In this document: in pieces, positions 640 through 19,070 of the stretch | Layout: the number at the start of each line of letters is the position of its first letter | Numbering within the stretch: position 1 is the stretch's first letter | Source: Oscillospiraceae bacterium | GTDB lineage: Bacteria > Bacillota > Clostridia > Oscillospirales > Acutalibacteraceae | Length of the DNA stretch: 64,000 nt | NCBI GenBank assembly: GCA_910574995.1 | Contig: CAJTCS010000009.1 | Location: 62,001-126,000 of the forward strand | Reading direction: 5' to 3' | Program-made: the position numbers and the translations under genes | The notes under the pieces: generated by a model | Database searches by the model: none | What the model was told of the DNA's origin: nothing | The model's input: the letters and a program-made list of their open reading frames with translations, nothing else

Positions 640-1089
640 TTAGTTGGTCTTGCTGTCCCCGGTATCCTCTACGGTCTTTTTGAGCTTTTCAATGAGTTTC
701 AGCAGAAAAGCGGGGAGCGGTACGCCGATTTCCGAGAGGTTTTCGAGGATAGAAATACACTCGTTCAAAATGAGCCAAATTGTCACGAGCAAGCCGAAAA
801 AGTAAAAGCCGCCGAAATCTACCCCGATTTCTCCCGCCGCCGTCTGTACGACCCAATCCGCGACGATTGCCACGGCTACGGCGAGGAGATAGGCGACCTT
901 TTTCACAATGCCCAGCACCCCCACGCGGGAGGAGAGCTCCCGCCTAATCCATGCCTCCGTCATGCCCGAGATATAGTCGATAGACATAACCACGGCGAGG
1001 ATAATCACCGGGAGGGCGAGCTCCTTAAAGTAGGCCGTGGCCCCCGCCACTGCGACGGCGATAACTGTTTTCAATGCGCTTTCTTTCAT
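640..1089 (-). CDS. Phage holin (holin_4_1 / Cph1-type)
   Basis: 149 residues with three or four hydrophobic segments (about residues 8-40, 60-85 and 90-112) and the family-like stretch around LILNECISILENL, then a charged C-terminus. Holins of this family form the membrane lesion that lets the endolysin reach the wall. It lies immediately upstream of the amidase and each gene has its own GGAGGT-type ribosome-binding site. The length is typical for the family. Confidence 0.85.
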   Translation of the reverse strand: MKESALKTVIAVAVAGATAYFKELALPVIILAVVMSIDYISGMTEAWIRRELSSRVGVLGIVKKVAYLLAVAVAIVADWVVQTAAGEIGVDFGGFYFFGLLVTIWLILNECISILENLSEIGVPLPAFLLKLIEKLKKTVEDTGDSKTN

Positions 1090-2437: not shown

Positions 2438-3619
2438 CTACGCGGCGAATAGCTCGCGGTATTCTCTTTCGACCGTCTGCACGGCGAAATAGCTGTTAAA
2501 TCTGCTCATGTGGCCCCGCCATGACGTGAGGGACGTTTTTACGTCCTCCTCCGTCATTCTCCCGGAGTCCACCCAACGACGAAAAATCTTGAGCTTTTCC
2601 CTCATGTGCTTTATGCTCTTATAGCAAGCACGGCGGACGACCGCGCCGTTTTCCCCGTACCGAAATCGTACCTTGAGGAAAGTAAAGCCCCGCGAGAGTT
2701 TGATTATCTGCGTCTTTTTCTCGTTGAGCTTTATCCCAAACTCGGCACATAGCCGCCGGATATGCCCGAGGCACTCCCGGAGCTTTTTCTTTGACCTGTG
2801 AACGGCGAGCCCGTCGTCCATATACCGCTCGTAAAACTTTATCCCGAGCACATCCTTGACGAAATGGTCGATTTTGTTCGGGAGCGCGATAGCGGCAATC
2901 TGTGAGACTTGACTCCCGAGGCCGAGGCCCACGTCCCCAAAGCATTTTATAAAATACTCGGAGAGGGATACGAGGCGGTCGTCGAGGCCGCTCTTTTCAA
3001 TCTCCCGAAATACCGGGCCGTGTTGCGCGGTATCAAAGTATTTCGAGAAGTCGAACACGAGAGCGTAGCCCTCGCGCCCGTTCTGTCTGTAATGCTGTGT
3101 GAGAAAGCCCGAGACCCGCCGGACGGCGAAATCGTAGCCTTTCCCTCGGAGGCTCGCCCCGTTGTCGTAAATAAACGTCCGGGAGAGCATAGGTACAAGG
3201 GAGTAATCGCATAGGCACCGCTGGACGACGCGCTCGCTTATGTGGACGCTCCGAATATGCCGGGGCTTTCCGCGCTCGACTAAATCGAACTCGTAAAACC
3301 CCTTTGACCGAAAGCGCCCGGCGAGTAATTCGTTATGCGTTTTGTTGATGTTCGCGAGTGCGCTCGCCTTGTACCTCTGTGTGCTCGCTTTCCAGCCCAC
3401 GCCCTTGACGGACTCCCGATAGGAGCCGTACAAGTGCTCGAACGAGAAAACGCGCTCAAAATCTCCGTATTGTTTCGCAAGCTCCGCCCGCCGTTTGAGT
3501 CGGGCGGCTTTGCGGCGCTGGTAGCGCCGCTCGTGTCTTTCTGCGCTATTCATAAAAGAAAATACCTCGCACAATTCTTTCTCTGTCGCGTTGTCTAAAT
3601 TGCGTAACGGGGGAGTCAT
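2438..3619 (-). CDS. DGR reverse transcriptase
   Basis: 393 residues. The catalytic palm motifs are visible: motif A around D190 (VFDFSKYFDT), the B-type motif SQVSQIAAIALPNKID (236-251), and the catalytic YMDD at 266-269. The absence of an X/maturase or endonuclease domain, a basic N-terminal region, and the adjacent Avd-like gene and template repeat identify a diversity-generating retroelement enzyme rather than a group II intron or retron RT. It copies the template RNA with errors at adenines and supplies cDNA that replaces the variable repeats. An alternative start at residue 23 cannot be excluded. Confidence 0.93.
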   Translation of the reverse strand: MTPPLRNLDNATEKELCEVFSFMNSAERHERRYQRRKAARLKRRAELAKQYGDFERVFSFEHLYGSYRESVKGVGWKASTQRYKASALANINKTHNELLAGRFRSKGFYEFDLVERGKPRHIRSVHISERVVQRCLCDYSLVPMLSRTFIYDNGASLRGKGYDFAVRRVSGFLTQHYRQNGREGYALVFDFSKYFDTAQHGPVFREIEKSGLDDRLVSLSEYFIKCFGDVGLGLGSQVSQIAAIALPNKIDHFVKDVLGIKFYERYMDDGLAVHRSKKKLRECLGHIRRLCAEFGIKLNEKKTQIIKLSRGFTFLKVRFRYGENGAVVRRACYKSIKHMREKLKIFRRWVDSGRMTEEDVKTSLTSWRGHMSRFNSYFAVQTVEREYRELFAA

Positions 3620-3787
3620 GAAACGGCGATAACGCGCAATCCGCCGCCATGCAAGGAGCGTCCGGCTCCCCGTGTCGCGGTATAAATTTGTCGTCCCGCC
3701 CGTAGGCGGTCGGAGGGGTCGTATCCCCCTTTTGCAAGGGCGCGGCTTTAACTCATTTCGAGCTATTCGGTCTGGCCCGTGCGAAAT
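3620..3787. other. Non-coding DGR flank between RT and template repeat
   Basis: 168 bases between the RT start and the template repeat. It contains no supported gene. A weak CCCTT/AAGGG hairpin lies near 3727-3740, but there is no counterpart of the 11-bp hairpins that follow the variable repeats. It is probably part of the template RNA that the RT uses for priming. Confidence 0.5.
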
Positions 3788-3905
3788 CCCGGCGCGAAAG
3801 CGAGCGAATTGTTCGCGTTCGTGTTGTTGACCGTGCCGTCTGTGTTCACATTCACAAAGTTAGTGGAGTTGCTCCGATTCGGGGAGCGGAGCCACCAATT
3901 AACGG
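3788..3905 (-). repeat. DGR template repeat (TR)
   Basis: A 118-base non-coding copy of the ends of two target genes (matches at 4450-4567 and 14308-14425). Read on the minus strand in the target frame it spells WWLRSPNRSNSTNFV and continues with many AAC/AAT (Asn) codons, ending SLAFAPGF. This adenine-rich codon use is the hallmark of a DGR template, where adenines are the mutable positions. The GC-rich left end (3788-3808) is identical in all three copies and fits the initiation-of-homing end. Confidence 0.95.
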
Positions 3906-3945
3906 CGAAACGGGATACGGCCCAATCGAAACGGAGCGCGAGGGC

Positions 3946-4365
3946 CTATCGGCTCTTGTCGCTCCGCTTGATTTTGGATATTTGAGAAATTTCGTCGGTT
4001 ATCTTTCCGACCCATTCCTTGAGGACGCTCGCCGGGAGCTTTTCACGGTTTACGCTCATAAAAGCGAGGTCGAGTACGTCCAGCATGGAATTATAATAGC
4101 CTTGCGCGTCCTCGTAGAGCTCCCTCCGCCGCTGGATAGTCCGGCGGCGTATCTCGTCCGGCGCTTTCTCGTCGATATAGACGAGGTTAGCCGTTTTCAC
4201 GAGCCTATACGCTCTTTGTGCCGCATTGTAGAGCGGCAAGGAAAAATAGAACGTGTGGGATTTCGGGAGTATCTTCACGCGGTCGTATGTAAAGACGTAG
4301 ATTTCCCGCGCAAGGTCGAGATAGTCGGCGGGGCTTTCACCTCGCCGGGATTTTGGCACACTCAT
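3946..4365 (-). CDS. avd: Avd-like DGR accessory protein
   Basis: 139 residues, basic and almost all helical, as in the four-helix-bundle accessory variability determinant that forms a ring and binds RT and template RNA. The N-terminal MSVPKSRRGES and the spacing of basic helical segments match the family as I know it. It sits in the usual order target gene, avd, TR, RT. It is needed for mutagenic homing in the well-studied Bordetella phage system; the same role here is inferred. Confidence 0.85.
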   Translation of the reverse strand: MSVPKSRRGESPADYLDLAREIYVFTYDRVKILPKSHTFYFSLPLYNAAQRAYRLVKTANLVYIDEKAPDEIRRRTIQRRRELYEDAQGYYNSMLDVLDLAFMSVNREKLPASVLKEWVGKITDEISQISKIKRSDKSR

Positions 4366-4397
4366 ATAGCACCGCCTCTTTTCCTATGTTCTCCGTG

Positions 4398-4424
4398 GAA
4401 TTGCGCCCATTGAGGGCGCAATTC
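4398..4424. other. VR1-associated DGR hairpin (perfect 11-bp stem, ATTGA loop)
   Basis: A perfect inverted repeat: left arm 4398-4408, loop ATTGA at 4409-4413, right arm 4414-4424. It starts 12 bases after the stop codon of the target gene (minus strand), 25 bases from the conserved end of VR1. A second hairpin with the same stem length and the same loop follows VR2. In known DGRs such hairpins or cruciforms just past the VR promote target recognition. Confidence 0.85.
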
Positions 4425-4436
4425 TGAAAGCCCGAA

Positions 4437-5669
4437 TTATACGCAAAAGCCCGGCGCGAAAGCGAGCGAATAGCGCGCGCTCGCGAAGCTGACCGTGCCG
4501 ACTGTGTACACAAGCACAAAGGAAGTGGAGTTGCTACGACCCGGGGAGCGGAGCCACCACTGAACGGCGGTCGTCGTCGCGTCGTGCCGATACTTTACCT
4601 TGCTGTTTCCGGCCTTGTAATAGTCGTATTGCGCTTGCTTGTTGGCCTCGTAGGTGTTCGCGTATGTGATAGTCCCGAAAACCTCATACTCCGCGAGAGG
4701 GAAAAATTTTTCCGTCGTCGCGGTTACATTCGCCTCGGCTGTCGAGGCGCTCCCGGTGTTGTCCGTGTACTTTGTAGCCGTCTTGAGGTTAGAGCGGAGG
4801 TCAGACGGGACGACGTTCTCGAACGCCGGGCAAATGGTTTTTTTCATGTACGACCCGGCCCAGCCGCCCGCGTTGGTGTTGCTGGTGTTCATGCGGAAAG
4901 CCGCCGAGGAGCCCGTCGAGTTATACGAGCTATCGCAAAGGGCTACGTCTGTCCCGCCGGAAACAGCGGTCTTTGCAAGCTGGAAGTGGATACGGTTAGA
5001 GCCCTCATAGCCCGCGTTATGGTTAAACCCGAGGATAAAGGCATACGTCGCAAAGTTGGAGAGAGTGAGGGAGCCGACCGTCCCGTTAAGGGTAACGGCC
5101 TTTCGGTCGCCGACGCTCCAATAGTTGGCCCCCTGTCCATTGTCGGAGACGCTCCGAATTGTGGCCCACGAGTTACTATTGAGCGTCGCGCTCACGAAAG
5201 AGAGCGTCAGCGAGTACGAGGTCGTGCTCGAAACAACATTGACCGTCCCGCTCGTGCTCTGTCCGTTCTGTGTGGCCTCGACCGTATACGTCCCGGTCTC
5301 TGTCACGGTAAACGAGACCGTCCCCGTGCTCGTCTTTGTGGCGACCGTAGAGCCGCCCTTTTTGAGTGTGACGGTCGCGCCGGAGGGCGCGGTTACGTTA
5401 ATCGTCGCCGAGTAGAACGCCAAAGAGACGGCGTAGCTATCGACGACGCTAACCGTTTTCGTGTCGGAGGTCTGCCCGTTGAGCGTTGCCTTGACCGTCC
5501 ACGTCCCGGCCTCCGGGAGCTTGAGGGTACACGAGCCGGAGGAGGAGGCCGTCCCCGAGACCGTCCGGCTCCCCTTTGTCGCCGTGACGCTGGCCCCGGC
5601 CTTGACCGTTACGACGAGAGAGAGGCTTGTCCCCGCCGCTCCGCCCGTCGCGTTTGTTCTGCCTATCAT
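4437..5669 (-). CDS. DGR target protein 1: Ig-like repeats plus C-type-lectin-like variable domain
   Basis: 410 residues. About 12-155 form two beta-sandwich, PEGA/Ig-like repeats rich in Thr/Ser/Gly. About 165-410 form a DUF6273-like, C-type-lectin-type domain ending in the variable region (369-410: WWLRSP motif, then SLAFAPGF). The variable residues are encoded by VR1. Its position after a fibre gene suggests a tail-tip adhesin whose binding face is diversified for host or surface switching. The domain assignment is from recognised motifs; the virion location is inferred. Confidence 0.88.
   Translation of the reverse strand: MIGRTNATGGAAGTSLSLVVTVKAGASVTATKGSRTVSGTASSSGSCTLKLPEAGTWTVKATLNGQTSDTKTVSVVDSYAVSLAFYSATINVTAPSGATVTLKKGGSTVATKTSTGTVSFTVTETGTYTVEATQNGQSTSGTVNVVSSTTSYSLTLSFVSATLNSNSWATIRSVSDNGQGANYWSVGDRKAVTLNGTVGSLTLSNFATYAFILGFNHNAGYEGSNRIHFQLAKTAVSGGTDVALCDSSYNSTGSSAAFRMNTSNTNAGGWAGSYMKKTICPAFENVVPSDLRSNLKTATKYTDNTGSASTAEANVTATTEKFFPLAEYEVFGTITYANTYEANKQAQYDYYKAGNSKVKYRHDATTTAVQWWLRSPGRSNSTSFVLVYTVGTVSFASARYSLAFAPGFCV
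4450..4567 (-). repeat. DGR variable repeat 1 (VR1)
   Basis: A 118-base match to the TR at a constant offset of 662. I count 19 differences; 17 fall where the plus strand of TR has T (template adenine on the coding strand). The two exceptions correspond to TR positions 3874 and 3898, the latter near the upstream edge. The GC-rich end 4450-4470 is unchanged. This shows that the locus has been mutagenised at least once. Confidence 0.95.
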
Positions 5670-5672
5670 GCC

Positions 5673-6635
5673 TTACACCGCCTTTTCACATTTGATAACC
5701 GGGAGCGTGATCGCGCCGCCCGGTTTTTCCGCCGCGTAAATCGTGACCGTCCCGGCCCCGGAGAGGGCGACCGGGGCGAAATTGCCGCCCGTGGCCTCTG
5801 TCACTCCGAAAGTGACCTCCGGGACGTGCTCCGCCGTTACCCCAGCGCACGAGATAACGGCGGCGAACGGATACCCCGCATAGGTGGAGCTATTCGCCCA
5901 CGCCGAGGCCGCGACCGCCACGTTTTGGAAAATCTTTACCTCCGCGTATCCGGCGTGAGAATGGGAGGCGGCGGCGAAATCCGCCGCTTTCTTGCCGCTG
6001 TCCTTTACGGCCCCGGTCGTGCCGTCAAACGCGGCGAGGTTGCCCGAGACCGGGGAGGCGGGCTTTTGGATATATTTGTCGTGCTCGTGGGAGGCCGGGG
6101 CGAAATCGTCCGGCTTTTTCCCGCTGTCCTTTACGGCCCCGGTCGTGCCGTCAAACGCGGCAAGGTTGCCCGAGACCGGGGAGGCGGGCTTTTGGATATA
6201 CTTGTCGTGCTCGTGGGAGGCCGGGGCGAAATCGTCCGGCTTTTTCCCGCTGTCCTTTTGCGCCCCGGTCGTGCCGTCAAACGCGACGAAATTCCCCGCG
6301 ACCGGGGAGGGGACTATATCGGGCTTTCCAGCGTCGAGGGCCTTTACGTTTTCTTGTAATGCCGTTTGGTCTGCCGCCGTGAAATAGCGCCCGATAATAT
6401 CGCCCTTTACCCATGAGCGCGGGCTCGTGCCGTCGTAGCCCCGCTCGATGGTGAGGACGTTTCCGGCTTTCGCCGTCATGAGGACGGTTTCCGCCGTAGT
6501 GGTATCCGCGCCAATCGTCAAAATATTAGGCGCGTCCGGCAAGATAGAGCCGTCGAGGACGGTTACGCTCGTGTCGGAGGTCGTGAGAGACCCGGCGAGC
6601 GTCGTCTCCGGCGTGTTCGGCTGTGCCGGGTACAT
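5673..6635 (-). CDS. Phage tail-fibre-like protein with repeated His-pair segments
   Basis: 320 residues. An N-terminal virion-protein-like region (1-105) is followed by 42-residue repeats (about 108-220) carrying PASHEHDKYIQ, then a C-terminal beta-rich domain. H-x-H pairs in fibre shafts bind metal in trimeric tail fibres such as T4 gp12, and a similar trimeric shaft is likely. It lies directly downstream of the protease with no capsid or tail genes in between, and 3 bases from the DGR target gene, which may share its particle. Confidence 0.8.
   Translation of the reverse strand: MYPAQPNTPETTLAGSLTTSDTSVTVLDGSILPDAPNILTIGADTTTAETVLMTAKAGNVLTIERGYDGTSPRSWVKGDIIGRYFTAADQTALQENVKALDAGKPDIVPSPVAGNFVAFDGTTGAQKDSGKKPDDFAPASHEHDKYIQKPASPVSGNLAAFDGTTGAVKDSGKKPDDFAPASHEHDKYIQKPASPVSGNLAAFDGTTGAVKDSGKKAADFAAASHSHAGYAEVKIFQNVAVAASAWANSSTYAGYPFAAVISCAGVTAEHVPEVTFGVTEATGGNFAPVALSGAGTVTIYAAEKPGGAITLPVIKCEKAV
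5995..6340. repeat. 126-bp tandem repeats inside the fibre gene
   Basis: Units begin at 5995, 6121 and 6247 (period 126 bases = 42 codons). The first two are almost identical; the third diverges toward its end. They encode the shaft segments with the ASHEHDKY motif. Such near-identical units can expand or contract by recombination and so change fibre length. Confidence 0.9.
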
Positions 6636-6672
6636 TACTGTACCTCCAAAAAATTTTTAGTGTTGGTCGGTC

Positions 6673-7260
6673 TTAATACGTCAAAGCTATGAGTTTTCTC
6701 CGCCGCCGGGCTTGCTCCAAAGCCGCGAGCTCTTTCCCGTGCTCCTCCGTGAAAAAGCTCCGCGCGGAGATAGACGTTTCCTCATAGGCGGGAATATCCA
6801 CCGCCGAAACGTCGTATAGCTTTTTGACCTTTGTAATTGTGCGGGTATGGGTAACGGAGTCGTATTTCGACTCGCGCACCGAAAAGGAAAACGACATTTT
6901 ATCGACATACCCGCCGTCGATTTCCTCGTAGAGCTCCCGGCCCGCCTGTGTGCCGGACAAGTCCGCCTCGACCTCGAGGCCCCGCTCTGTGACGCGGAGC
7001 GCGAGGGTCTTGTTACGGAGCCGGGCGACGACTTTCCCGCCGTGGTTGTAGTTGAAAATCACGTCGGAGGTATCGCACCCGTCGAAAGCGTGACGGTCGA
7101 TAATCTCGCAATATTTCACGCCGTCGCACTCATAGAGCACGGTCGGCGTATCGAACACGACCGCCGTACCCTTTACCCGGTATTCCTCGGAGCCCTCCTC
7201 GCGGGGGACGAGGCTAAAATCCTGCAAAGAGCGGTATTCCCGCCCGTCTTTGAGCGTCAT
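6673..7260 (-). CDS. HK97-type prohead protease
   Basis: 195 residues. The family signature is visible: a buried catalytic His in VIFNYNHGGKVV and the Ser in the MSFSFSV strand, followed by a DVSAVDIPAYEETSISAR segment. It cleaves capsid precursor during head maturation. The start overlaps the portal stop by 4 bases. A major capsid gene should follow, but the next gene is the fibre, so its substrate is missing from this cluster. Confidence 0.9.
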   Translation of the reverse strand: MTLKDGREYRSLQDFSLVPREEGSEEYRVKGTAVVFDTPTVLYECDGVKYCEIIDRHAFDGCDTSDVIFNYNHGGKVVARLRNKTLALRVTERGLEVEADLSGTQAGRELYEEIDGGYVDKMSFSFSVRESKYDSVTHTRTITKVKKLYDVSAVDIPAYEETSISARSFFTEEHGKELAALEQARRRRKLIALTY

Positions 7261-8549
7261 TGTTTACCCTCCTCTCCGCCGTCCTCCGGCGGTTTTTCAT
7301 CGTCTGGCGGTTCGCCGCCGCCCTCCGGCTCCGGCGGCGGGTCTTTTTTCGGGCCGTCGCCGCCTGTTTGGTATTTGTCCGCGAGCTCGGCGTTTACCAT
7401 GTTCAGCGTCTGCACCCGCCGGGAGCCCTCGTCGCCGCCGATAGTCGGCATATCAAACATAGTGAGGATTTGGTCGAGGGTCGCGGCCCCGATTTCCGTT
7501 AAGAATTTCGCCGCCGATACCTTTTCCGTGAGGGTCGCGAACTGTATCGAGTTGGAGGAGAATACGATACGGTTTCCGTGACCGACCTCCCGCTCCGTAA
7601 AAATGCAATTTGTAAACGCCTGTGTCAGCTTGCGGAAAAACGGAGAAATCTCGCCGTTATAAAAAGCGGACTCTTGCGCCGGGGTCGCCGTATTCTCGAC
7701 GATTTCTTTCGATACCCCGAAATAGTCGTAAATCTCCTCTTTGACATAGGAGAGTTGCGTCGAGGGTATCGGGGTCGTTTTGTCCGAAATCGGCGTATAT
7801 TTATATTTTGCGTCGGTTACGATAACGCCCGCGCCGTTGTTCTCCATGCGGAGATTGTCCCGGATAAAATCGTCCCGCCGCTTGTTCAAGTCCTCCGTTT
7901 TGACCGCGTTAGAGACCTCGAGAACGCCCCGGATAACTGCGATAAGCTCCGCGAATTTGCTCATAGACTGATTAAACGTGTTCGCGGTCTTGAGCACGGT
8001 CTCGAGTGGCTTGTTACTGTCCCCGAAAATATCGTTTTCGAGGAAGTGCCGCCGGATATGGATAAGCCGGGAATACTCGCAAATGTACGAGCTCCCGGTC
8101 GCAAAGCGAAAACGGCAATATAAAACGCCCATGTACTCGAGGAGCTCGAAATACTGCGCGTTAATGGGATATATCGCCGTCAGCCTCGGCCCGTCAAAGA
8201 CGGGATAGGCTATCGCGTTGTTATAGATTTTGTATTGTGCCGCGAGCTTGTAATAAAACTCGGAGGCCGTCATATACGGATTTGGCTTGAACTGTAAAAC
8301 CCGGTCGAGGTAGTCGTTTACCGATACCGTCGTCTCCGCGTCCGTGCGGACGTGCCGAGGCTGTGCCGTGGATACCCGCCGGGCGAAAGCGTCCACCGCC
8401 GAGCGCACGGTATTTATATCCCATGCGTTACCCGAGTAGGGGACGAAAGTAGACTCCCACGAGCTCAAGAGCCGATAGGCCGAGTAACCCTTGTCGTCGT
8501 CTTTCCGCCCGCCGAAAATCGTTTGAAATAACCCTCGTTTTTCTTTCAT
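7257..8549 (-). CDS. Phage portal protein (HK97 family)
   Basis: 430 residues, typical length. It resembles HK97-like portals: an N-terminal Arg/Lys-rich segment, YSAYRLLSSWESTFVPY, a central region with IHIRRHF, and an acidic/Pro-rich C-terminus after residue 385. It forms the dodecameric DNA channel at one capsid vertex and docks the terminase. It lies between the large terminase (4-base gap) and protease (4-base overlap), the canonical order. Confidence 0.92.
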   Translation of the reverse strand: MKEKRGLFQTIFGGRKDDDKGYSAYRLLSSWESTFVPYSGNAWDINTVRSAVDAFARRVSTAQPRHVRTDAETTVSVNDYLDRVLQFKPNPYMTASEFYYKLAAQYKIYNNAIAYPVFDGPRLTAIYPINAQYFELLEYMGVLYCRFRFATGSSYICEYSRLIHIRRHFLENDIFGDSNKPLETVLKTANTFNQSMSKFAELIAVIRGVLEVSNAVKTEDLNKRRDDFIRDNLRMENNGAGVIVTDAKYKYTPISDKTTPIPSTQLSYVKEEIYDYFGVSKEIVENTATPAQESAFYNGEISPFFRKLTQAFTNCIFTEREVGHGNRIVFSSNSIQFATLTEKVSAAKFLTEIGAATLDQILTMFDMPTIGGDEGSRRVQTLNMVNAELADKYQTGGDGPKKDPPPEPEGGGEPPDDEKPPEDGGEEGKQ

Positions 8550-8553
8550 TCAC

Positions 8554-10209
8554 TCACCCCACAAGGTACATATAATCCTCGAAATCCCGGACGTAGACGA
8601 CCCACGCGTTAAGGAGCGAGACCGCTCCGTCGATACGGCGGCGGTCGGAAATCTTCACGGGCTGGATATTGTTTACCCCGCTCTTTTTCGCCGCTGTATT
8701 CGAGAGGCACCATACGAGAATAGGATTTTTATTGTAATTTACTTTCTTGTCCGTAAAAGCCGCGCCCATTTCTCGCATAGGTTGAGACCATGTAAAAGGC
8801 CCTTGCGCGACAGCGCACATATCAAAGCCGTTTGACTTCATTTCATCGACCCAATACCCAGCGAGGGCGCGGTCGTATCCGACCTTGAAAGCGTCTATCT
8901 TGAACTCGTCCCGCATTTGGCAAAACCACGCCGTAACGATGGAATAGTCCACGCGGGAGCCGTCGCATATCGTGAGGAGCCCCCGCTCGGCCCATATCTT
9001 GTAAGGGGCCTCTTGCGAGTTATGCTCCGATAGTTGGTCTATCCGCTTTTGCGGTATAAAATAATGCTGGACGACGTAGATAATCGGGTCGTCGGAGCTC
9101 CGGCGTATGAGGAGCGAGGCGCACGTTAAATCCGTCGTCGCCGAGAGGTCGCACCCGCCGATAGCGTAGGTATTATATACGTCCTGCATGGTGAAAACCG
9201 CGTCGCTCTTTATGTCCTCGAACGAGAGCCACACGGTAGCCGCGACCTCCGGGACGTTGAAATCTTTACACAAAACGCCGGGCAAGTCCTCGGGATTTTT
9301 CTTTGCTCGCTCGACGAAATCGGCGAGGGTCGCGTACTGCTTTATCGTCCCGAGCCCCGGATTTGCCTTTATCCATTTTTGCGGGTCTGTCCATTCTGCC
9401 CGCTCGTCGAGCTCATAGAGCACGGGGAGGAAACGCTCGTCGTCCGTTTTCCCGTCCGCGACCTCGCAAGCGTAGCCGTATAGATTATCGAAAACCGACT
9501 CCCGTACCGTGCCGCTCGTGGTAATCATGATAACCAGCGGTTGACGACGGCTCGAGGTCGATTGTTTCATGACCTCGTAGAGATTTCGGTCTCGTATCGC
9601 GTGGAGCTCGTCGATAATGACGGCGTGAGAGTTGAGGCCGTCCAGCGTGTTAGAGTCGCTCGCGAGCGCCTCGAAAATGGAGGCCGTCGCCGGGAAATAA
9701 ATATCATTCCGCCGCTTTTTCAGCACGGCCCGGAGCTCCGGGCTTTGCTTTACCATGTTCACGGCCTCGGTGAGCGTCTTTTTCGCTTGGTCTTTTTTGG
9801 TCGCGACGCTATAAATCTCCGCCGCGCCCTCGTAATCTGCTATGAGGAGATAGAGGGCGAGGGCCGCGAGGAGCGTAGACTTTCCATTTTTCCGCCCAAC
9901 AAGAAAGAGTGTCTCTCGAAAACGACGGTATCCCGTCGCCCTCTCGAGCCACCCGAAAAGCGTTTGTATGAAAGCCTTTTGAAAGAGGTCGAGCTCGAGG
10001 GTAGCCCCGAGCGTCCCTTGTGACTGTTTGCAAAACCGCTCGACGAAAATAATCGGGCGCTCGCCCGTCTCCTCGTCGAAATAGTAGGGCGAGCCCGTCC
10101 CCGGCTCGTCCATTTCCCGCACGAGGCGACCGTAAACGGCCTTGACCCGGCGGGACGTGATTATCTCCCCGCTCTCGATTTTCCGCCAATACTCGCGGAC
10201 ATAATTCAC
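8554..10209 (-). CDS. terL: Phage terminase large subunit
   Basis: 551 residues. The ATPase domain has Walker A GRKNGKST (105-112) and Walker B VIIDE (197-201). The C-terminal nuclease domain has the acidic motif GGCDLSATTDLT near residue 355 and a second acidic site (KVGYDRALAGYW). It pumps DNA through the portal and cuts it. It overlaps terS by 4 bases. It is intact, so the packaging motor looks functional even though capsid genes are absent. Confidence 0.95.
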   Translation of the reverse strand: MNYVREYWRKIESGEIITSRRVKAVYGRLVREMDEPGTGSPYYFDEETGERPIIFVERFCKQSQGTLGATLELDLFQKAFIQTLFGWLERATGYRRFRETLFLVGRKNGKSTLLAALALYLLIADYEGAAEIYSVATKKDQAKKTLTEAVNMVKQSPELRAVLKKRRNDIYFPATASIFEALASDSNTLDGLNSHAVIIDELHAIRDRNLYEVMKQSTSSRRQPLVIMITTSGTVRESVFDNLYGYACEVADGKTDDERFLPVLYELDERAEWTDPQKWIKANPGLGTIKQYATLADFVERAKKNPEDLPGVLCKDFNVPEVAATVWLSFEDIKSDAVFTMQDVYNTYAIGGCDLSATTDLTCASLLIRRSSDDPIIYVVQHYFIPQKRIDQLSEHNSQEAPYKIWAERGLLTICDGSRVDYSIVTAWFCQMRDEFKIDAFKVGYDRALAGYWVDEMKSNGFDMCAVAQGPFTWSQPMREMGAAFTDKKVNYNKNPILVWCLSNTAAKKSGVNNIQPVKISDRRRIDGAVSLLNAWVVYVRDFEDYMYLVG

Positions 10210-10586
10210 GGCTTGCCCGCCGCTTTCGGCTGTGTAATAAAGCCCATGAGCTCATTACCCGCCTGTTTTTGTGCTTTCTCGGGGAGGAGGTCGAGGAGGC
10301 TTTTCGAGAGCGTGGTAAAGGATTTTATCGTCGTGTTGTAGCTCTTGAGGGCCGGAGACTCACGCCGTAGGCTCTGCGAGCCTTGGACGAAATCCTCTAT
10401 CAAGTCGCCGCTGTTGATTTCGTCGGCGAGGCGTTCCAGCGTGACGGAGGTAACGGCGAATTGAGCTATCAAGCCGTCGGCAAATTGAGCCTTGTCCGAG
10501 GGCAATTCTTTGAAAAGTTTTTTGATTTTCCGCTTTTTTACCTCGATTTTTTCGGCTATATCCATGTCTTGATATTTTTTCGCCAT
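10206..10586 (-). CDS. terS: Phage terminase small subunit
   Basis: 126 residues, helical and very basic at the N-terminus (KKRKIKKLFKEL), with a C-terminal helix for oligomerisation, as in P27-type small terminases. It recognises packaging sites and recruits TerL. The assignment rests mainly on size, helical character and position directly before terL. Confidence 0.8.
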   Translation of the reverse strand: MAKKYQDMDIAEKIEVKKRKIKKLFKELPSDKAQFADGLIAQFAVTSVTLERLADEINSGDLIEDFVQGSQSLRRESPALKSYNTTIKSFTTLSKSLLDLLPEKAQKQAGNELMGFITQPKAAGKP

Positions 10587-10712
10587 ATAATGTAAGCCTC
10601 CTCTCTTTTGGCCTTATACCCCCCCTCATGTACGCGCTCGGGGCGGTTCTAAAGGGGATTGAGAGGCGGTTACGAGCGCCGCCTCTTTTTCGTGGGGAGT
10701 GGGGGGGAGTGG

Positions 10713-11066
10713 TTAATAAAATTCGTCGTCGTCGATTTGCGGTCGCGGCATGAGCGCGGCCTCGACGACATTCCCGTTTTCATCGAACGCGAGCCCGTCC
10801 GCTATCGGCGGCGCGGCTCCGTGCGCTATGGCATGACAAGCGCGGCAAAGCGTCTCGAGATTGTTTTCGTTCAGCGAGACGAGAGGGTCGTCGATGTTGC
10901 TCGGCGTGAGCGGCCTCTTGTGGTGGACGATAACCCCCAGCGCACCGCAACGGACACAAAGCCCCGCGTCTCGCTTGATGATATACGCCCGTGTGCTCCG
11001 CCACGCCGGAGACTCGTAAAAGGCTTTTGCAAATGCCCGCATTATTCGCGCCCCCTGTCTGTGCAA
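10713..11066 (-). CDS. Phage HNH endonuclease
   Basis: 117 residues. It shows CVRCGALGVIVHHKRPLTP, the NLETLCRACH segment and two CxxC pairs that bind zinc: the HNH nuclease fold. In HK97-type phages an HNH protein beside terminase is often required for terminase cutting. A later start at residue 9 (MRAFAKAF) is equally possible. It begins the packaging module downstream of the late regulator. Confidence 0.88.
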   Translation of the reverse strand: MHRQGARIMRAFAKAFYESPAWRSTRAYIIKRDAGLCVRCGALGVIVHHKRPLTPSNIDDPLVSLNENNLETLCRACHAIAHGAAPPIADGLAFDENGNVVEAALMPRPQIDDDEFY

Positions 11067-11160
11067 AGAGAACGCCCCGCATAGCTACAAGCCCTCTCGT
11101 GTACGGCGGGCTCGTGGCTATGTGAGGCGCACGGCGGCGAGGCTTTCCCTCGACCTCTCT

Positions 11161-11240
11161 TTACGGGTACATGATAACACGGGCTAAAAGCAAAAATCTA
11201 TGTACTCTTTTTTTAGTACGCTATAAAACGCTATAAAAGA
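11161..11240 (-). promoter_or_regulatory. Candidate late-gene control region with 10-bp direct repeats
   Basis: The non-coding stretch 11067-11240 separates the late regulator from the HNH/terminase module. It is AT-rich next to GC-rich coding sequence and holds two perfect tandem copies of CGCTATAAAA (11219-11228 and 11229-11238) followed by a partial third. This is where a RinA/ArpU-type activator would act. The repeats are seen; the role is inferred. Confidence 0.4.
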
Positions 11241-11684
11241 CTATACAGACGGGAGCGCGACCGCGCCGAAATAGCGGAGCGCAAACTCCGCGACGGCTGT
11301 ATTTCGCAAGTCGTATATGCTCCGCGTGGAGGCATAGTTTACCGCCGCCGCTATCTCGTCTTTGCTCTTGCCCTCAACGTACCAAAGCCGGATAATATCC
11401 CGCTCCGCCTCGCCGAGCTGTGAGATAACCGCGTCTATCTCCTGTATCTTTTCCTCCGTGGCCTTGATTTCCCGGACGACCTCCGCGAGCTCGAGGCACT
11501 CCGCGAGCGTGTCGTTTACCGCGCTCGTGCTGGCGTATGGCTTGGAGAAATCCGGCGACGGATACCCCGACGGGCCACCATGCGCGATAATGCGCTCTCT
11601 CCGGCGCTCAAGGTTTTTTAGGGCGGAGTCGAGATAGCCCCGGCCCCGGAGCGTATTCTCCGCCGCGTCGAAATAGTTTATCAA
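11241..11684 (-). CDS. Phage late transcription regulator (RinA/ArpU-like, sigma region 4-like HTH)
   Basis: 147 residues. The N-terminal half is helical/coiled-coil (about 20-85). The C-terminal half (about 88-140) is a sigma-70 region 4-type helix-turn-helix with AERDIIRLWYVEGKSKDEI. Such proteins activate late morphogenesis genes in Gram-positive phages and typically lie just before HNH/terminase, as here. Direct repeats just downstream may be its target. Confidence 0.75.
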   Translation of the reverse strand: MINYFDAAENTLRGRGYLDSALKNLERRRERIIAHGGPSGYPSPDFSKPYASTSAVNDTLAECLELAEVVREIKATEEKIQEIDAVISQLGEAERDIIRLWYVEGKSKDEIAAAVNYASTRSIYDLRNTAVAEFALRYFGAVALPSV

Positions 11685-11716
11685 TTTTTTGCCTCCTCTC
11701 GCGGGCTCCGCCGCTT

Positions 11717-12118
11717 TTACAGTTTTTTGCCGCCGTGCCGATACGGTCTCCCGGTGTTATAGGCGTATTTCGCCTCGAGCACGGCCTCAATGTCTACGCC
11801 CGAATAGGCGAGGTAATCGAAAATCCTCATAACTGCGTCGCAAAGCTCCACGGCTACGCCCTCCGGCTTGCATGGGCCGTCTACGCCCTCGCCCTCCGGC
11901 TGTCCGACCCTATCGCACACGCCGAAGAATTTACACCCCTCCGCCGCAAGCGCACACGTCCCATAGACGAGCGGATTTCCCTCGCGCCACTCCTCGACGG
12001 CCTCCGAGATTTCCGCGTGTACCATGACCGCGACCTCCGGGAAATCGACGGGGGTATCATACCACCCGTGCGCGACCGCGTTCTCGTGTATGGCCTTTGC
12101 AAATTCGTTTACTGTCAT
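11717..12118 (-). CDS. MazG-like nucleotide pyrophosphohydrolase
   Basis: 133 residues. The metal-binding EISEAVEEW helix (about 36-44) and the ELCDAVMRIFDY helix (about 92-103) fit the all-alpha NTP pyrophosphohydrolase superfamily. An inserted Cys-containing loop (about 53-75) lies between them. It probably hydrolyses non-canonical or signalling nucleotides during infection. It overlaps the downstream end of the HUH gene by 4 bases. Confidence 0.8.
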   Translation of the reverse strand: MTVNEFAKAIHENAVAHGWYDTPVDFPEVAVMVHAEISEAVEEWREGNPLVYGTCALAAEGCKFFGVCDRVGQPEGEGVDGPCKPEGVAVELCDAVMRIFDYLAYSGVDIEAVLEAKYAYNTGRPYRHGGKKL

Positions 12119-12894
12119 TTTCGAGACCTCCCTTTCTTGTTTGGCTTGATAAATTTCCCGTCCTGTCGGTAATACCGGGCGACGAGATAAACGCCGCCGT
12201 TTACGTCATTGTGAAAAGCCCCAGCGTCGGCGAGGAAATAGCCCGGATAGAGCTTTTCAAATTCCCGGTTGTCGGTCGTGTCCCGTGCGAGCTCCCGCGC
12301 CTGTCTCGCGGAGATATGCCCGTCCCGCGTTTTCGGCTCCGGGTCTACGAGGTTTTTCGAGGCGTTCCACGCCTTATAGCCGACCGGGGATTTCGTGATA
12401 TAGTGCGCGAGCCCGGCGAGGCCGTTCTCCGTGAACTGCAAGCGGCGGGAGTTTGCATAGCCGAGCCCCCAAAGGCTTTCGAGCTCGTCCCGGTCGATAC
12501 CGCCGTTTACCGTGATGTGGTGATGGATACGACCGCCCTTTTTGCCCCGCTCCGTTACGACTATGTACTTGAGCGGCGGGAGCCCTCTCTTTTTGCGGAG
12601 CCTTTGTATCCGGCGGATATAATTCCGCAAGTGGCGAGCGGCCTCCTCGTCGCTTTCCGGCTGGACGGTATACGTCAAGTGTATCTCTAAATCCTCCGGG
12701 GTAAAATTCGTGTGGAGGAGGCGGGCGAGCTTTTCCTCCCTGTGCCGCTGATTGAGTTTCTTTTGAGCCGCCGAGGAGGGCTTTCTCTTTCTCCGCCCTC
12801 CCGAGCTCCGCCGCCCGGTCTCGAACGTAGGGAAGATATACACGTCGAGATATTCCCCGCAATAATACCGCTTTTCCCGATAGACTGTCCTCAT
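12115..12894 (-). CDS. HUH-type replication initiator-like endonuclease
   Basis: 259 residues. Three motifs of rolling-circle Rep/HUH nucleases appear in order: motif I IHLTYT (71-76), the metal-binding HHH at 124-126 (RIHHHI), and a Y-x-x-K motif YITK with Tyr165. The basic N-terminal tail may bind DNA. It probably nicks phage DNA to start replication. No helicase or polymerase gene is visible nearby, so host enzymes would be used. Its role is inferred from motifs. Confidence 0.8.
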   Translation of the reverse strand: MRTVYREKRYYCGEYLDVYIFPTFETGRRSSGGRRKRKPSSAAQKKLNQRHREEKLARLLHTNFTPEDLEIHLTYTVQPESDEEAARHLRNYIRRIQRLRKKRGLPPLKYIVVTERGKKGGRIHHHITVNGGIDRDELESLWGLGYANSRRLQFTENGLAGLAHYITKSPVGYKAWNASKNLVDPEPKTRDGHISARQARELARDTTDNREFEKLYPGYFLADAGAFHNDVNGGVYLVARYYRQDGKFIKPNKKGRSRK

Positions 12895-13106
12895 GCTTAT
12901 ACCTCCGAGCGTTTACCCGTTGCGAGGGGGAGAGGGCTCATATATCGCCCCCTCCCTCTCCCCCTCGCGCACCCCCTCACCCTCGGCGGCGTTTTGCTTG
13001 CTTTGTTTTGAGGGAATGAGGCGAGGGAGGGAGTCCCCCTCTTGGTCGGTTAGTTAATATTCCATACGAGCCCGAAAAAGCGCCTTGCGCTTTCTCTTTT
13101 TCGCCC
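12895..13106. other. Non-coding phage segment upstream of the candidate small RNA
   Basis: About 210 bases between the HUH gene and the plus-strand promoter. I see GC-rich, low-complexity sequence around 12926-12980 and no supported gene. Together with the small RNA it forms the longest gap in the prophage apart from the TR region, so it could also hold a replication origin for the HUH protein; no iterons were recognised. Confidence 0.4.
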
Positions 13107-13135
13107 TTGCAAACCGCCCCGGAGTGTGATATTAT
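13107..13135 (+). promoter_or_regulatory. Sigma-A-like promoter on the plus strand of the prophage
   Basis: TTGCAA at 13107-13112 and TATTAT at 13130-13135 with a 17-base spacer. An overlapping TATAAT (13133-13138) would give a 20-base spacer. It points opposite to all phage genes and toward a short transcript ended by a terminator-like hairpin. Confidence 0.55.
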
Positions 13136-13140
13136 AATAA

Positions 13141-13207
13141 AGGTATAAGTAATCACCTTTCGGGGCGGTTACGCCTCCGGCGCTCTCGCAAAGTGCCGGA
13201 GGCTTTC
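13141..13207 (+). ncRNA. Candidate antisense small RNA
   Basis: A short region after a plus-strand promoter that ends in a strong hairpin (GCCTCCGGC / GCCGGAGGC arms near 13172-13202) followed by a T-rich run, a rho-independent terminator. Bases 13142-13163 match 18295-18316 at 21 of 22 positions. That second site is the antisense of the ribosome-binding site and start region of the early gene 17917-18294, so the RNA could pair with that mRNA. Promoter, terminator and complementarity are seen; expression and function are inferred. Confidence 0.5.
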
Positions 13208-13221
13208 TTTTTGCCCGCCGA

Positions 13222-13470
13222 CTATTTTCGCCGAAAGCGGTCGGCGGCGGTACACGTTTTCCAGTGGGGGACGAACGCAACCGGGAGCGTCCGGCGCTCC
13301 TCCTCCGGCAAGGCCCGCCGCCCGGTAATAACCTCGCCCTCGTCCGTGATAAAATGGTCTTTCCCCTCGCCCTCGATAATGAAAACGGGCTCCGGGTCTA
13401 CGGGCATAGTGCGCCCCGCCTCCGTCCGTATCCATTCCAGTGGAGCGCCGCACCCTTTACATACGCTCAT
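13222..13470 (-). CDS. Small zinc-ribbon phage protein
   Basis: 82 residues from the ATG at 13470, which overlaps the stop of the upstream gene. The N-terminal CKGCGAPLEW and a second Cys near the C-terminus (WKTCTA) suggest a metal site; the rest is beta-rich. Proteins like this are common early genes of Clostridia phages with unknown role. Confidence 0.65.
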   Translation of the reverse strand: MSVCKGCGAPLEWIRTEAGRTMPVDPEPVFIIEGEGKDHFITDEGEVITGRRALPEEERRTLPVAFVPHWKTCTAADRFRRK

Positions 13471-13736
13471 TTTTCGGCCTCCTCGTATTTGTAATCTACA
13501 AAATAGCCCTCCGGCGTTATATCGAAATCCCCAATTCCCCAATTTGCGCCGCACTCGCACCCGGCGACCGTTGCCTCCATTGAGCCGCAATCTCTTTTTA
13601 TGTATCTTTTAGAAATGCGGCCCGATTTTGTTATTTTGAAATCGTGGGAATATTGATATAACTCTGATATTTCGATTTCCCCTCCGCATAGAGGGCATTT
13701 CTCCCGTTGTACTCCGGGAGTTGCAAACCGTTTCAT
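13467..13736 (-). CDS. Small phage protein with two Cys pairs
   Basis: 89 residues from the ATG at 13736 (purine-rich RBS upstream). CPLCGGEIEI near the N-terminus and CGSME/CECGANW near residue 60 form a likely zinc-binding domain. A longer in-frame reading upstream overlaps the next gene and is not supported. Function unknown. Confidence 0.6.
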   Translation of the reverse strand: MKRFATPGVQREKCPLCGGEIEISELYQYSHDFKITKSGRISKRYIKRDCGSMEATVAGCECGANWGIGDFDITPEGYFVDYKYEEAEK

Positions 13737-14230
13737 ATACTCGCCCCTCTTGCTTTCTCCGGCGGCGGCATATCGGCGGGGAGGAGTTGGAGGGCAAGTA
13801 GCCCGCCCTTTGTTTCCCCGACGGGCCGAAAGCCCGCGAGCTCGTAGGTACGGCCCCACGTTTTAGCGCCGTGCACCATTGTCGGCCTTACTTTCCGCCT
13901 GTCGATAAATGTAATCATACCTAATTCCGGCGGCTCTCCAAAGTGCGCCCGAGTAGCGGCGACGGCCTCCCGTATCATTTCCGAGGCTACGCCCGCGCCC
14001 TCATTTCGGAAAGCGGAGCAAACCCACGCCCCGGCCCATGCGTGGCGCACATACTCGGCATACGGATACGATGTTATCCAAAAGGCGCGGCCTGTTTCCG
14101 TCTCCGTGTAGAGCACGAGGGCGCGGCCCGGCGGGACAAATTGAGGAGTCCCCGGCTTTTGCCTGTTATAATGCCTGTCTGCTACGTCTCGAGCTCGCGG
14201 GTCGGCTTTCCATGACGTTTCCCATATCAA
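13733..14230 (-). CDS. Conserved phage protein, possibly GNAT-like
   Basis: 165 residues if translation starts at the TTG at 14230, which has AAGGGGG upstream; longer readings would run through the VR2 hairpin and are rejected. The N-terminus WKADPRARDVADRHYNRQKP and the stretch KTWGRTYELAGF recall a widespread phage protein family with an acetyltransferase-like fold. Its job is unknown. It starts just past the VR2 hairpin. Confidence 0.6.
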   Translation of the reverse strand: MIWETSWKADPRARDVADRHYNRQKPGTPQFVPPGRALVLYTETETGRAFWITSYPYAEYVRHAWAGAWVCSAFRNEGAGVASEMIREAVAATRAHFGEPPELGMITFIDRRKVRPTMVHGAKTWGRTYELAGFRPVGETKGGLLALQLLPADMPPPEKARGASI

Positions 14231-14251
14231 AAGCGTTTCCCCCTTTGCCTT

Positions 14252-14278
14252 ACCTCCCCGGCATTGAGCCGGGGAGGT
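14252..14278. other. VR2-associated DGR hairpin (perfect 11-bp stem, ATTGA loop)
   Basis: Left arm 14252-14262, loop ATTGA at 14263-14267, right arm 14268-14278. It starts 16 bases after the stop of the second target gene and 29 bases from the conserved VR2 end. Stem length and loop equal those of the VR1 hairpin, but the stem sequence is entirely different, so structure and loop are kept rather than sequence. The plus strand continues with TTTT, so a terminator role is an alternative. Confidence 0.8.
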
Positions 14279-14294
14279 TTTGTAATTCCGAATT

Positions 14295-15134
14295 TTACAT
14301 ATCAAAGCCCGGCGCGAAAGCGAGCGAATAGTGCGCGTTCGCGTTGGTGACCGCGCCGCCTGTGTACACACCCACAAAGTTAGCGGAGTAGCCCCGAGCC
14401 GGGGAGCGGAGCCACCAATTAACGGTTTCCCCGTTGCGCTCCTTTACCCGGCTCCGCTCCGTCTTGAAAATCTCGAGTTGAACGGAGTCCGGCTCCTCGG
14501 CGTACCGCTCCGGGTGAGGCCCGAAAACGTCCGTCCCGGAGGGTATCCATAGCGGGTCGCTATACTCGACGCGCTCCCCGTCGATAACCTCCACGAGCGG
14601 GCGGGGCTCGATAACCTCCCGGAGCTCCGGCGGCAAGTGCGGGTAAATCTCCTCGAGGACGTGCCGCCGTCCCTTACTCTTATAGTAGCCGCCCGCGTTG
14701 GTCGCGTCCTCGTTCATGGGAGCGTCGCCGAGCGCGTCCTTAAAGACGAAACGCGCCCGCGTCGGCGTGACATACCCGCCGCACACAGCGGTAACGGCCT
14801 CCCCGGTATCGAGCTTAAACTCGAGCTCGTCGCCCGGCTGGATAACCTCAAAGCCGCGCCCGCTCGCGATAGCGGCCTTTATATCCGTGAGGCTCACCGC
14901 CCCGCTCACACGCTCGACGAGCTTAAACGGGCTCTCGCAAACGTCCTCCTCTGGCTTGTGCATGATACCGACCGCCGCCGGAGCCTCCGGGAGTACGACC
15001 GTCCCGAGATACTCGAGCCGCCCGTCCAGCAGTACGAGACCGTCGGCAAACTGCGCCTTGAGCCGCTCGCGGAGCTTGTCCGCGTCCGTGGTGGAGAGGA
15101 CGGTCGAATTTTTGATGATAGATACCGATTTCAT
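14295..15134 (-). CDS. DGR target protein 2 (C-type-lectin-like variable C-terminus)
   Basis: 279 residues from the ATG at 15134 with GGAGGG upstream; the longer upstream reading overlaps the hydrolase gene and is rejected. The N-terminal 1-90 has no recognised domain. Residues 100-279 form a DUF6273-like domain with NAGGYYKSKGRRH and a C-terminus (238-279) encoded by VR2, with WWLRSP and SLAFAPGF. Unlike target 1 it has no Ig-like stalk. It sits among early or accessory genes next to a membrane-anchored hydrolase, so it may act outside the virion; this is inference. Confidence 0.85.
   Translation of the reverse strand: MKSVSIIKNSTVLSTTDADKLRERLKAQFADGLVLLDGRLEYLGTVVLPEAPAAVGIMHKPEEDVCESPFKLVERVSGAVSLTDIKAAIASGRGFEVIQPGDELEFKLDTGEAVTAVCGGYVTPTRARFVFKDALGDAPMNEDATNAGGYYKSKGRRHVLEEIYPHLPPELREVIEPRPLVEVIDGERVEYSDPLWIPSGTDVFGPHPERYAEEPDSVQLEIFKTERSRVKERNGETVNWWLRSPARGYSANFVGVYTGGAVTNANAHYSLAFAPGFDM
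14308..14425 (-). repeat. DGR variable repeat 2 (VR2)
   Basis: A 118-base match to the TR at offset 10520. I count 14 differences and all 14 are at template adenines of the coding strand (T on the plus strand of TR). VR1 and VR2 share changes at several sites but mostly carry different bases. This shows that the single TR has written to a site about 10 kb away. Confidence 0.95.
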
Positions 15135-15138
15135 TTTG

Positions 15139-15747
15139 TTACCCTCCGATTTCACAAAAATAATGGTTTCCGATAATTGCGGTAATGTGCTCGTTATACG
15201 GCTCCGTGGAGAAAAACACGGTTTCCGGCGTGACGACGGGCTCCTCGGCGTTATATGCGTACATGACCGCGCTATACTGTACCTCGCTCGGCTCCGCCGT
15301 GTATAAGTAGGGCGCGGGGGAGAACTGCCACACGTCGCCGTATTTCTGAAAGACGACCTCCTCGACCGTATCCGGGAAAGCGTCGGAGAGGCAACGGTTA
15401 AACACGACCTCCACAACGGCGGCTTGTCCCTCGAACGGCTCGCCCCGTGCCTCATGGTAGACGAGGCAAGCGAGGGTATAAGCGTCCTCCTCTGTGAGCT
15501 CGACCGCCGCGTACCGCGAGACGGGCTCCGGCTCTGGCGTTGCCGCCGGGGTCGGAGCGGGAGCCATGCTCGCCGCCGGAGCGGATACCTCCGCCGAGGG
15601 CGGGGCTCCGTACATGACCTCGGCGAGCTTTGCGCTCGCAAACGATAAGGTTATGACGAGCGTAGCGGCTACGAGAGCAATCGCCCCGGCGATAAATGGG
15701 AGGTAATCGCTCATATCGAGCGGGCGGCGGGGGCGCTTATGTTCCAT
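15139..15747 (-). CDS. Membrane-anchored SleB-like cell wall hydrolase
   Basis: 202 residues. A transmembrane segment (about 18-40) is followed by a Pro/Ala-rich spacer (50-78) and a Hydrolase_2/SleB-type domain (82-202) with LACLVYHEARGEPFEGQ and AAVVEVVFNRC. SleB-type enzymes act on peptidoglycan. In a prophage this could help DNA entry, lysis or wall remodelling in the lysogen. It ends 4 bases before the second DGR target gene, so the two are probably co-translated. Confidence 0.85.
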   Translation of the reverse strand: MEHKRPRRPLDMSDYLPFIAGAIALVAATLVITLSFASAKLAEVMYGAPPSAEVSAPAASMAPAPTPAATPEPEPVSRYAAVELTEEDAYTLACLVYHEARGEPFEGQAAVVEVVFNRCLSDAFPDTVEEVVFQKYGDVWQFSPAPYLYTAEPSEVQYSAVMYAYNAEEPVVTPETVFFSTEPYNEHITAIIGNHYFCEIGG

Positions 15748-18750: not shown

Positions 18751-18824
18751 GCGGGTGTAGTTCAATGGTAGAACCCCAGCCTTCCAAGCTGGTCGTGTGG
18801 GTTCGATTCCCATCACCCGCTCCA
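18751..18824 (+). tRNA. tRNA-Gly(TCC)
   Basis: Acceptor arms GCGGGTG and CACCCGC pair fully; CCA is encoded. The anticodon loop CTTCCAA carries TCC. The T arm GGGTTCGATTCCC is present. First gene of a four-tRNA operon. Confidence 0.97.
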
Positions 18825-18861
18825 CTTCCTTACTGGGGGCTTGTGCTGAGATATATTTTAT

Positions 18862-18938
18862 GCGCCAATAGCTCAGCTGGATAGAGCAACTGCCTTCTAA
18901 GCAGTAGGCCAGGGGTTCGAGTCCCTTTTGGCGCGCCA
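18862..18938 (+). tRNA. tRNA-Arg(TCT)
   Basis: Acceptor arms GCGCCAA and TTGGCGC pair; encoded CCA. The anticodon loop CTTCTAA carries TCT. The T arm GGGGTTCGAGTCCC is intact. Confidence 0.97.
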
Positions 18939-18942
18939 ATAT

Positions 18943-19020
18943 GGTGAGTGTAGCTTAGCTGGTTAAAGCGCCAGATTGTGGCTCTGGAGACCGTGGGTTC
19001 GAATCCCATCACCCACCCCA
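18943..19020 (+). tRNA. tRNA-His(GTG)
   Basis: The anticodon loop TTGTGGC carries GTG. The extra 5' G (18943) opposite the C discriminator fits tRNA-His. The acceptor stem GTGAGTG/CACCCAC has one A-C mismatch in the middle; otherwise canonical, with encoded CCA. Confidence 0.95.
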
Positions 19021-19070
19021 CACAGGAACGCGGAGTTTAATTCTTGCAATTAGGCTCCGTGTTTGCATAT

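Follow-up and report, generated by a model that had tools for sequence, protein, structure and literature searches.

A prophage in the genome of an Oscillospiraceae bacterium carries what is, taken as a whole, very probably a diversity-generating retroelement (DGR) of the BPP-1 type, in which a single template repeat (TR) supplies two target genes. We analysed 64,000 nucleotides of contig CAJTCS010000009.1 (assembly GCA_910574995.1, positions 62,001 to 126,000 of the forward strand), referred to here as the window and numbered from its first base. The first target ends in variable repeat 1 (VR1) and the second, remote target in variable repeat 2 (VR2); the coordinates are collected in Table 1. 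An earlier note on this DNA had proposed a prophage DGR in which one template serves two targets, each rewritten on its own, with the reverse transcriptase (RT) and Avd-like genes adjoining VR1 only. Our analysis bears out both points, and the rewriting of VR2 is backed by near-identical relatives. That the two proteins diversify together, as the note also proposed, is a prediction for this strain.

The three repeats share a core of 118 bases, which can be extended to 122 bases in each, and they are the only copies in the bacterium's own genome at E <= 0.001. When TR 3788-3905 is aligned with VR1 4450-4567, 19 of the 118 sites differ, 17 of them at a T of the plus strand, that is, an A of the minus, coding strand. 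With VR2 14308-14425 there are 14 mismatches, all at template A. Realignment thus returned exactly the coordinates and counts given previously, and a table of mismatches by template base reveals a clear adenine excess in both repeats (hypergeometric P of 5.0e-11 for VR1 and 1.5e-10 for VR2, with 29 A in 118 positions). Ten of these 29 adenines are changed in both VRs (five to the same base), seven in VR1 only, four in VR2 only and eight in neither. Because the changed adenines are split in this way, VR1 and VR2 have been rewritten separately, as had been claimed. At the variable sites, translation of the TR gives mostly Asn (AAC/AAT codons), which is the usual DGR design. Just beyond the core, base 3787 is A in the TR and C in both VRs (GGGATTT vs GGGCTTT). 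This difference, which is also present in IMG/VR records G001, G002, G004 and G005, in Shimadzu, Dulem virus 34 and Fontainebleau, but not in G014, G015 or G018, is probably a fixed difference between IMH* and IMH (initiation of mutagenic homology).

Further evidence on VR2 comes from two near-identical relatives, a metagenome-assembled Bacillota genome (L086) and record G001 (L089). Their target-2 genes differ at 17 of 837 bases, 16 of which lie in the 122-nt VR2 and one in the other 715, and 14 of the 16 fall on an A of the G001 TR, which served as the reference in place of L086's own. Such a pattern is the one expected of population data; to judge from these sequences, VR2 has recently been rewritten in a close relative, as distinct from the window strain. 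Remote second targets also recur. Of 30 loci with related RTs in IMG/VR, 20 could be taken as whole or near-whole records (G019 minus its last 854 bases), and seven of them have a second, remote VR (G001, G002, G004, G005, G014, G015 and G018). The other 13 have a single VR, except that G013 lacks a TR/VR pair; since these single-VR records include long ones of 45-57 kb (G008, G010 and G012), the second target is not universal. Among 15 phage records, a non-random set picked from RT and target-2 matches (with Lelie, Pioen and MT835491 covered over 48-50 kb), seven have a remote second target: Shimadzu, Dulem virus 34, Lelie, Fontainebleau, nd12, nd4 and MT835491. In the 15 two-target elements, window included, template adenines account for 221 of the 230 VR2 mismatches, and VR2 is on the TR strand in 15/15. 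With 14 other records showing it, the two-target layout is not exceptional.

As for the proteins, the RT, Avd-like and both target frames are all open in the window prophage. LGSQVSQ-type motifs mark DGR RTs, and the window RT has this motif together with YMDD, where the BPP-1 RT has YMDD and IGSLTSQ. Its best solved relative is 8ub7_A (E 5e-19, length 328), which we take to be the BPP-1 enzyme; the length fits. Many DGRs also encode an accessory Avd protein; the Avd-like protein of the window matched no Pfam family, and its profile gave chance-level matches only against PDB sequences. In target 1, DUF6273 occupies residues 261-410 of 410, preceded by weak Ig-like-type matches. This is not the tentaclin arrangement of an N-terminal C-type lectin domain followed by Ig-like domains, as excerpted from PMC10743442 (here and below, papers are cited from parts of their text). 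The DUF6273 match of target 2 was scored within a longer ORF, 14295-15641, and the start at 15134 was set from relatives. A model of the target 2 core, built from 20 sequences, reached a pLDDT of 89.7 and gave C-type lectin matches. Foldseek on this core retrieved one chain (9qa6) at E <= 0.001. Target 2, as modeled, is a bare C-type lectin domain, with its variable residues on such a scaffold as expected in a DGR. A full-length model from eight sequences (pLDDT 59.7, no significant Foldseek match) was dropped in favor of the core model. A search of PDB sequences with the target 2 profile returned only three arsenate-reductase sequences, at E 0.012, which we judged to be chance matches.

Beyond the repeats, a GC-rich hairpin follows each VR of the window. 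The two hairpins differ in stem sequence and share the loop TCAAT, and no such hairpin follows the TR. G001, G002, G004 and G005 are arranged identically, and further target-2 genes have the TCAAT loop in 9/10 cases, the tenth (L155, a target-2 relative without a known partner) having GTCTA. Other phages have other loops, for example GAAA after both VRs in Dulem virus 34 and CCCACGGA after both in MT835491, so that the loop is identical at both sites in 7/12 two-target phages with hairpins. Partly alike pairs are seen in G018 (CTGTGT and TTGTAT), G014 (TTGTAT and CGATGT), G015 (TTGTAT and GTTTT), Shimadzu (CTCGT and CTATGT) and Fontainebleau (CTTGC and CCCGC). Of 720 permutations of six lineage representatives, which are not fully independent, two reach the within-phage loop match; lineage B was represented by G018, and G015, whose loops agree less, was left out. 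Hairpins scoring at least 10 follow 22/30 VRs and 0/13 TRs of two-target elements and, in a second, overlapping set, 15/16 VR1 and 0/16 TR; as background, 3.0% of 3,000 windows drawn at random and 7.0% of 242 stretches following stop codons reach this score. The known BPP-1 hairpin, with its GAAA loop, was recovered as a positive control. In BPP-1, stem structure and loop sequence both matter, and phage DGR hairpins have been described as lying 4 to 34 bp past the VR, with a 7-10 bp GC-rich stem and a 4-nt loop GRNA (excerpts of Guo et al. 2011, PMC3240598). The window hairpins start 25 and 29 nt past the 118-nt repeat, in keeping with that description, and their best stems are one base pair over the published range; in the TCAAT clade, 7 to 12 bases are paired. 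The loop departs from it, with five nucleotides, TCAAT, at both VRs instead of GRNA; BPP-1, Dulem virus 34, Roos, Pioen and MT835543 have GAAA or GGAA.

On the RT tree, loop types cluster almost perfectly, with 10 changes for a minimum of 9 and a shuffled mean of 17.4. This tree omits L014 (out-of-frame, 11 internal stops, branch of 9.67 in a first tree) and the near-duplicates L020, L028 and Pioen, and one stop letter was removed from each of rows L015 and L036. For VR1, agreement between loop and RT may reflect linkage and nothing more; the informative part is the match at VR2, which lies far from the RT and lacks that kind of linkage to it. For example, target 2 of Dulem virus 34 is 44% identical to that of the window and its RT 30%, and its loops are of its own RT clade's type. 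In an out-of-sample look at this idea, G039 has a target-2 relative (L151 10219-10818) with a GAAA hairpin, and neither TR found in the stretches examined there matches this gene; it is possibly an orphan target or one that lost its partner. Separately, in nd12 (L125) and Lelie (L095), which lack such hairpins, both VRs instead share a linear motif about 40 nt downstream, such as ATCTTGGTATC in nd12.

In the mechanism that we propose, the TR transcript would be copied by the RT and its Avd-like partner, with errors at template adenines, and the cDNA would replace the 3' end of either target gene. Each target would be marked by the 3' sequence common to the TR and, outside the homologous stretch, by a GC-rich hairpin whose stem may vary and whose TCAAT loop is constant; this loop is absent after the TR. 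Target 1, next to the RT, is in this view a late protein of tail type that ends in a DUF6273 C-type lectin domain. Target 2 is a small protein with the same domain, and its gene belongs to the early/replication module, at a distance of 10 kb here and of ~19 kb in two relatives that are intact. We infer rather than observe the enzymatic steps, what the hairpin loop does and the early production of target 2.

Several findings weigh against this picture or parts of it. DGR activity in the window strain is predicted from the adenine bias and from relatives, and was unobserved in the strain itself, whose prophage is probably unable to make virions by itself (see below). The Avd-like protein has no match to BPP-1 Avd in a profile comparison, and VR1 has two mismatches outside adenines, a T>G at position 8 on its 5' edge and a G>T at position 32. 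The loops are similar without being identical in 5/12 phages (the partly alike pairs listed above), the within-phage likeness of the stems is reached by 15 of 720 permutations across the six lineages, and no such hairpin follows the VRs of the two-target phages Lelie, nd12 and nd4. Finally, no replication or methylase gene was found within 3 kb of target 2 in 5/12 two-target phages checked (G005, G018, MT835491, Lelie and nd12).

One could also regard VR2 as a dead fossil, left by a single old retrohoming or gene-conversion event and drifting since, as might suit a prophage that has no capsid and tail genes and whose activity is predicted from sequence. Drift, however, should touch all bases, yet every VR2 change is at an adenine; moreover, two near-identical relatives differ almost solely within VR2, and adenine-specific changes mark a remote target in 14 other records. 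We therefore hold a fossil to be highly improbable. It is also unlikely, if slightly less so, that the hairpins are ordinary transcription terminators whose common loop is coincidental. While stretches after stop codons do reach the score threshold at the control rate given above, no T run follows either window hairpin in the stretches inspected, both hairpins lie inside a same-strand gene series, and the loop is equal at both sites in five related phages and differs between lineages.

How target 2 is used is less clear-cut. It may be a second receptor-binding protein of the virion, Mtd-like and encoded apart from the tail genes, a reading whose chances we put only a little below even. It has the same domain as target 1, its C-type lectin fold resembles known binding proteins, and this is the reading favored for target 2 of nd4 and nd12 in the text excerpted from PMC10743442. 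Against this, target 2 is placed among replication, recombination or methylase genes (within 3 kb) and not tail genes in 7/12 two-target phages checked, mostly has no attachment domain beyond DUF6273, and is fused to DUF3310 in nd12. These points of gene place and domain are nevertheless compatible with a virion protein, because virion proteins need no signal peptide either. A bolder generalization, which we consider rather doubtful, is that in many gut Bacillota phages the conserved second DGR target is an early, intracellular, non-virion protein, a bare C-type lectin. The template that serves the tail protein would also re-randomise the binding face of this lectin, for example against host-defence or rival-phage proteins that keep changing. 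In the same proposal, the hairpin loop would act as an address that the RT complex recognises in trans, with each RT lineage having its own loop and any gene with the loop and the shared 3' sequence becoming a target.

On the minus strand, the prophage reads hydrolase, target 2 with VR2, early genes, G2P-type initiator, terminase, portal, protease, fibre-like gene, target 1 with VR1, Avd-like gene, TR, RT and holin-like gene. Gene order agrees with G002 and G005 on either side of a junction between the protease and fibre-like genes, where 9.9 kb (vs G002, approximately) or 10.3 kb (vs G005) is absent; in G002, this block codes for capsid protein, connectors and tail proteins. As a result, the 10-kb distance between the targets stated in the earlier note is true of the window, in which the VRs are 9.7 kb apart, but is not the native spacing; in G002 and G005 the VRs are 19.1 and 19.0 kb apart, respectively. 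A search of the own genome for two proteins of the block (the capsid and a 917-aa ORF) gave its closest matches in another prophage, on contig C3 (43-49% identity over longer stretches, 32-35% over two short ones), plus a 21% capsid match on C7. The block is thus not a separate assembly piece of this genome, and its apparent deletion is read from the assembly. Because the capsid and tail genes are absent, virion production by this prophage alone is improbable, and the idea of two proteins changing phage behavior is not valid for the window copy without a helper.

Table 1. Features of the two-target retroelement and its prophage (window coordinates).
Feature	Position	Strand	Basis
DGR-type RT, 393 aa, no internal stop, intact	2438..3619	-	Pfam RVT_1 E 3e-15; phrog_1423 E 3.3e-76; motifs YMDD, LGSQVSQ
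TR	3784..3905	-	one of three copies of a 122-nt repeat; mismatches of the other copies fall on TR adenines
Avd-like accessory protein, 139 aa	3946..4365	-	profile match to annotated Avd of Roseburia phage Shimadzu, probability 96.75, E 3.2e-10
Hairpin downstream of VR1, 11-bp stem, loop TCAAT	4398..4424	-	score 14.5 (14 or more in 0.6% of random windows)
Target 1 (VR1 gene), 410 aa, N-terminal Ig-like-type part (weak matches) and C-terminal DUF6273	4437..5669	-	DUF6273 E 2.5e-11; phrog_37900 E 3.7e-92
VR1, 3' end of the adjacent target gene	4446..4567	-	17/19 differences at template A
Hairpin downstream of VR2, 11-bp stem of different sequence, loop TCAAT	14252..14278	-	score 15.5 (15 or more in 0.2% of random windows)
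Target 2 (VR2 gene), 279 aa, DUF6273 (C-type lectin fold) and ~70 extra N-terminal residues	14295..15134	-	DUF6273 E 1.5e-10
VR2, 3' end of the remote target gene	14304..14425	-	14/14 differences at template A
Holin-like gene	640-1089	-	
Fibre-like gene	5673-6635	-	
Junction where ~10 kb of capsid/tail genes of relatives is absent	6636..6672		gene-order comparison with relatives
Prohead protease	6673-7260	-	
Portal	7257-8549	-	
Terminase	8554-10209	-	
Replication initiator, ORF2/G2P type, downstream of the VR2 gene	12115..12894	-	PF23343 E 3.1e-12; phrog_3584 E 1.1e-76
Cell-wall hydrolase (Hydrolase_2), hydrophobic segment at the N-terminus, immediately upstream of the VR2 gene	15139..15747	-	PF07486 E 1.1e-14; hydropathy

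Some further observations concern the prophage and its host genome. The fibre-like gene contains three successive 126-nt direct repeats at 5947-6324 (the other two 87% and 73% identical to the first), and four tRNA genes (Gly, Arg, His and Gln) at 18751-19146, just past the early end of the prophage, may mark its integration site. The capsid homologue of the C3 prophage (C3:67894-68625) has an internal TGA stop, and that prophage may also be damaged. Contig C3 also carries a second DGR (L149 10189-12425), with an RT (L149 11130-12146) 35% identical to that of the window, a TR at 12324-12425 and one VR downstream at 10189-10290, in which 15/15 differences are at template A and which no hairpin follows.

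With two natural targets of the same DGR in one genome, the requirements of the machinery can be told apart from the variation that it tolerates: VR1 and VR2 agree in the loop and differ in the stem. As loop type tracks RT lineage, comparison offers a way to test what reads the hairpin, a question left open in the excerpts of PMC3240598. The recurrent early-gene place of the second target, in turn, questions the view that phage DGRs serve receptor binding only.

Among known systems, Bordetella phage BPP-1 shares with the window the order target-avd-TR-RT, adenine-specific changes and a hairpin after the VR and not the TR. It differs in having one TR-derived target, a GAAA loop and an Avd that is not recognisably related by profile. 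The "variable region 2" annotated in bbp36 of the BPP-1 record (L126 33229-33558) is only a 17-nt match to the TR (E 0.017), with no clear TR copy. The tentaclin phages nd4 and nd12 likewise have one TR of Asn-type design and two C-type lectin targets, target 2 being a single DUF6273 (PMC10743442, in part); we recovered target 2 as remote in both, near replication genes in nd4. In contrast to the window, their target 1 is a tentaclin with its VR near the 5' end, where VR1 of the window is at the 3' end, and no hairpin follows the VRs. In the Faecalibacterium phages Lelie and CP11, there are also two VRs, in a large and a small target, both DUF6273 (PMC11792537, in part). Both VRs of Lelie were recovered here, that of the small target being remote, but its RT is 31% identical and its VRs have no hairpin. 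Another such system is that of Roseburia phage Shimadzu (LR596903), for which, according to PMC11792537 (same excerpts), two targets have been reported. It has an RT 49% identical to that of the window, an Avd homologue, and a TR with an adjacent VR (17/18 differences at A) and a remote one (15/15). The latter lies in orf43, a relative of target 2, amid methylase and recombination genes. Unlike the window, Shimadzu has two different loops and a record with complete structural genes.

One template with two targets is already published for the gut phages Lelie, CP11, nd4, nd12 and Shimadzu (PMC11792537, PMC10743442, as excerpted). More generally, DGRs with more than one target are common: 271/948 have several VRs, 235 of the 271 across several genes (PMC6642488, excerpt), and remote targets escape metagenome surveys (Roux et al., PMC8144416, excerpt). 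Neither a loop common to two targets of one DGR nor an early-module second target was found stated in the portions of open-licence literature searched, including PMC11792537, PMC10743442, PMC6642488, PMC3240598, PMC8144416 and PMC12875486. What is new here is the recurrence of remote targets, the VR2 differences between relatives, the hairpin loop common to both VRs, the early-gene setting of the lectin target and the missing capsid/tail block.

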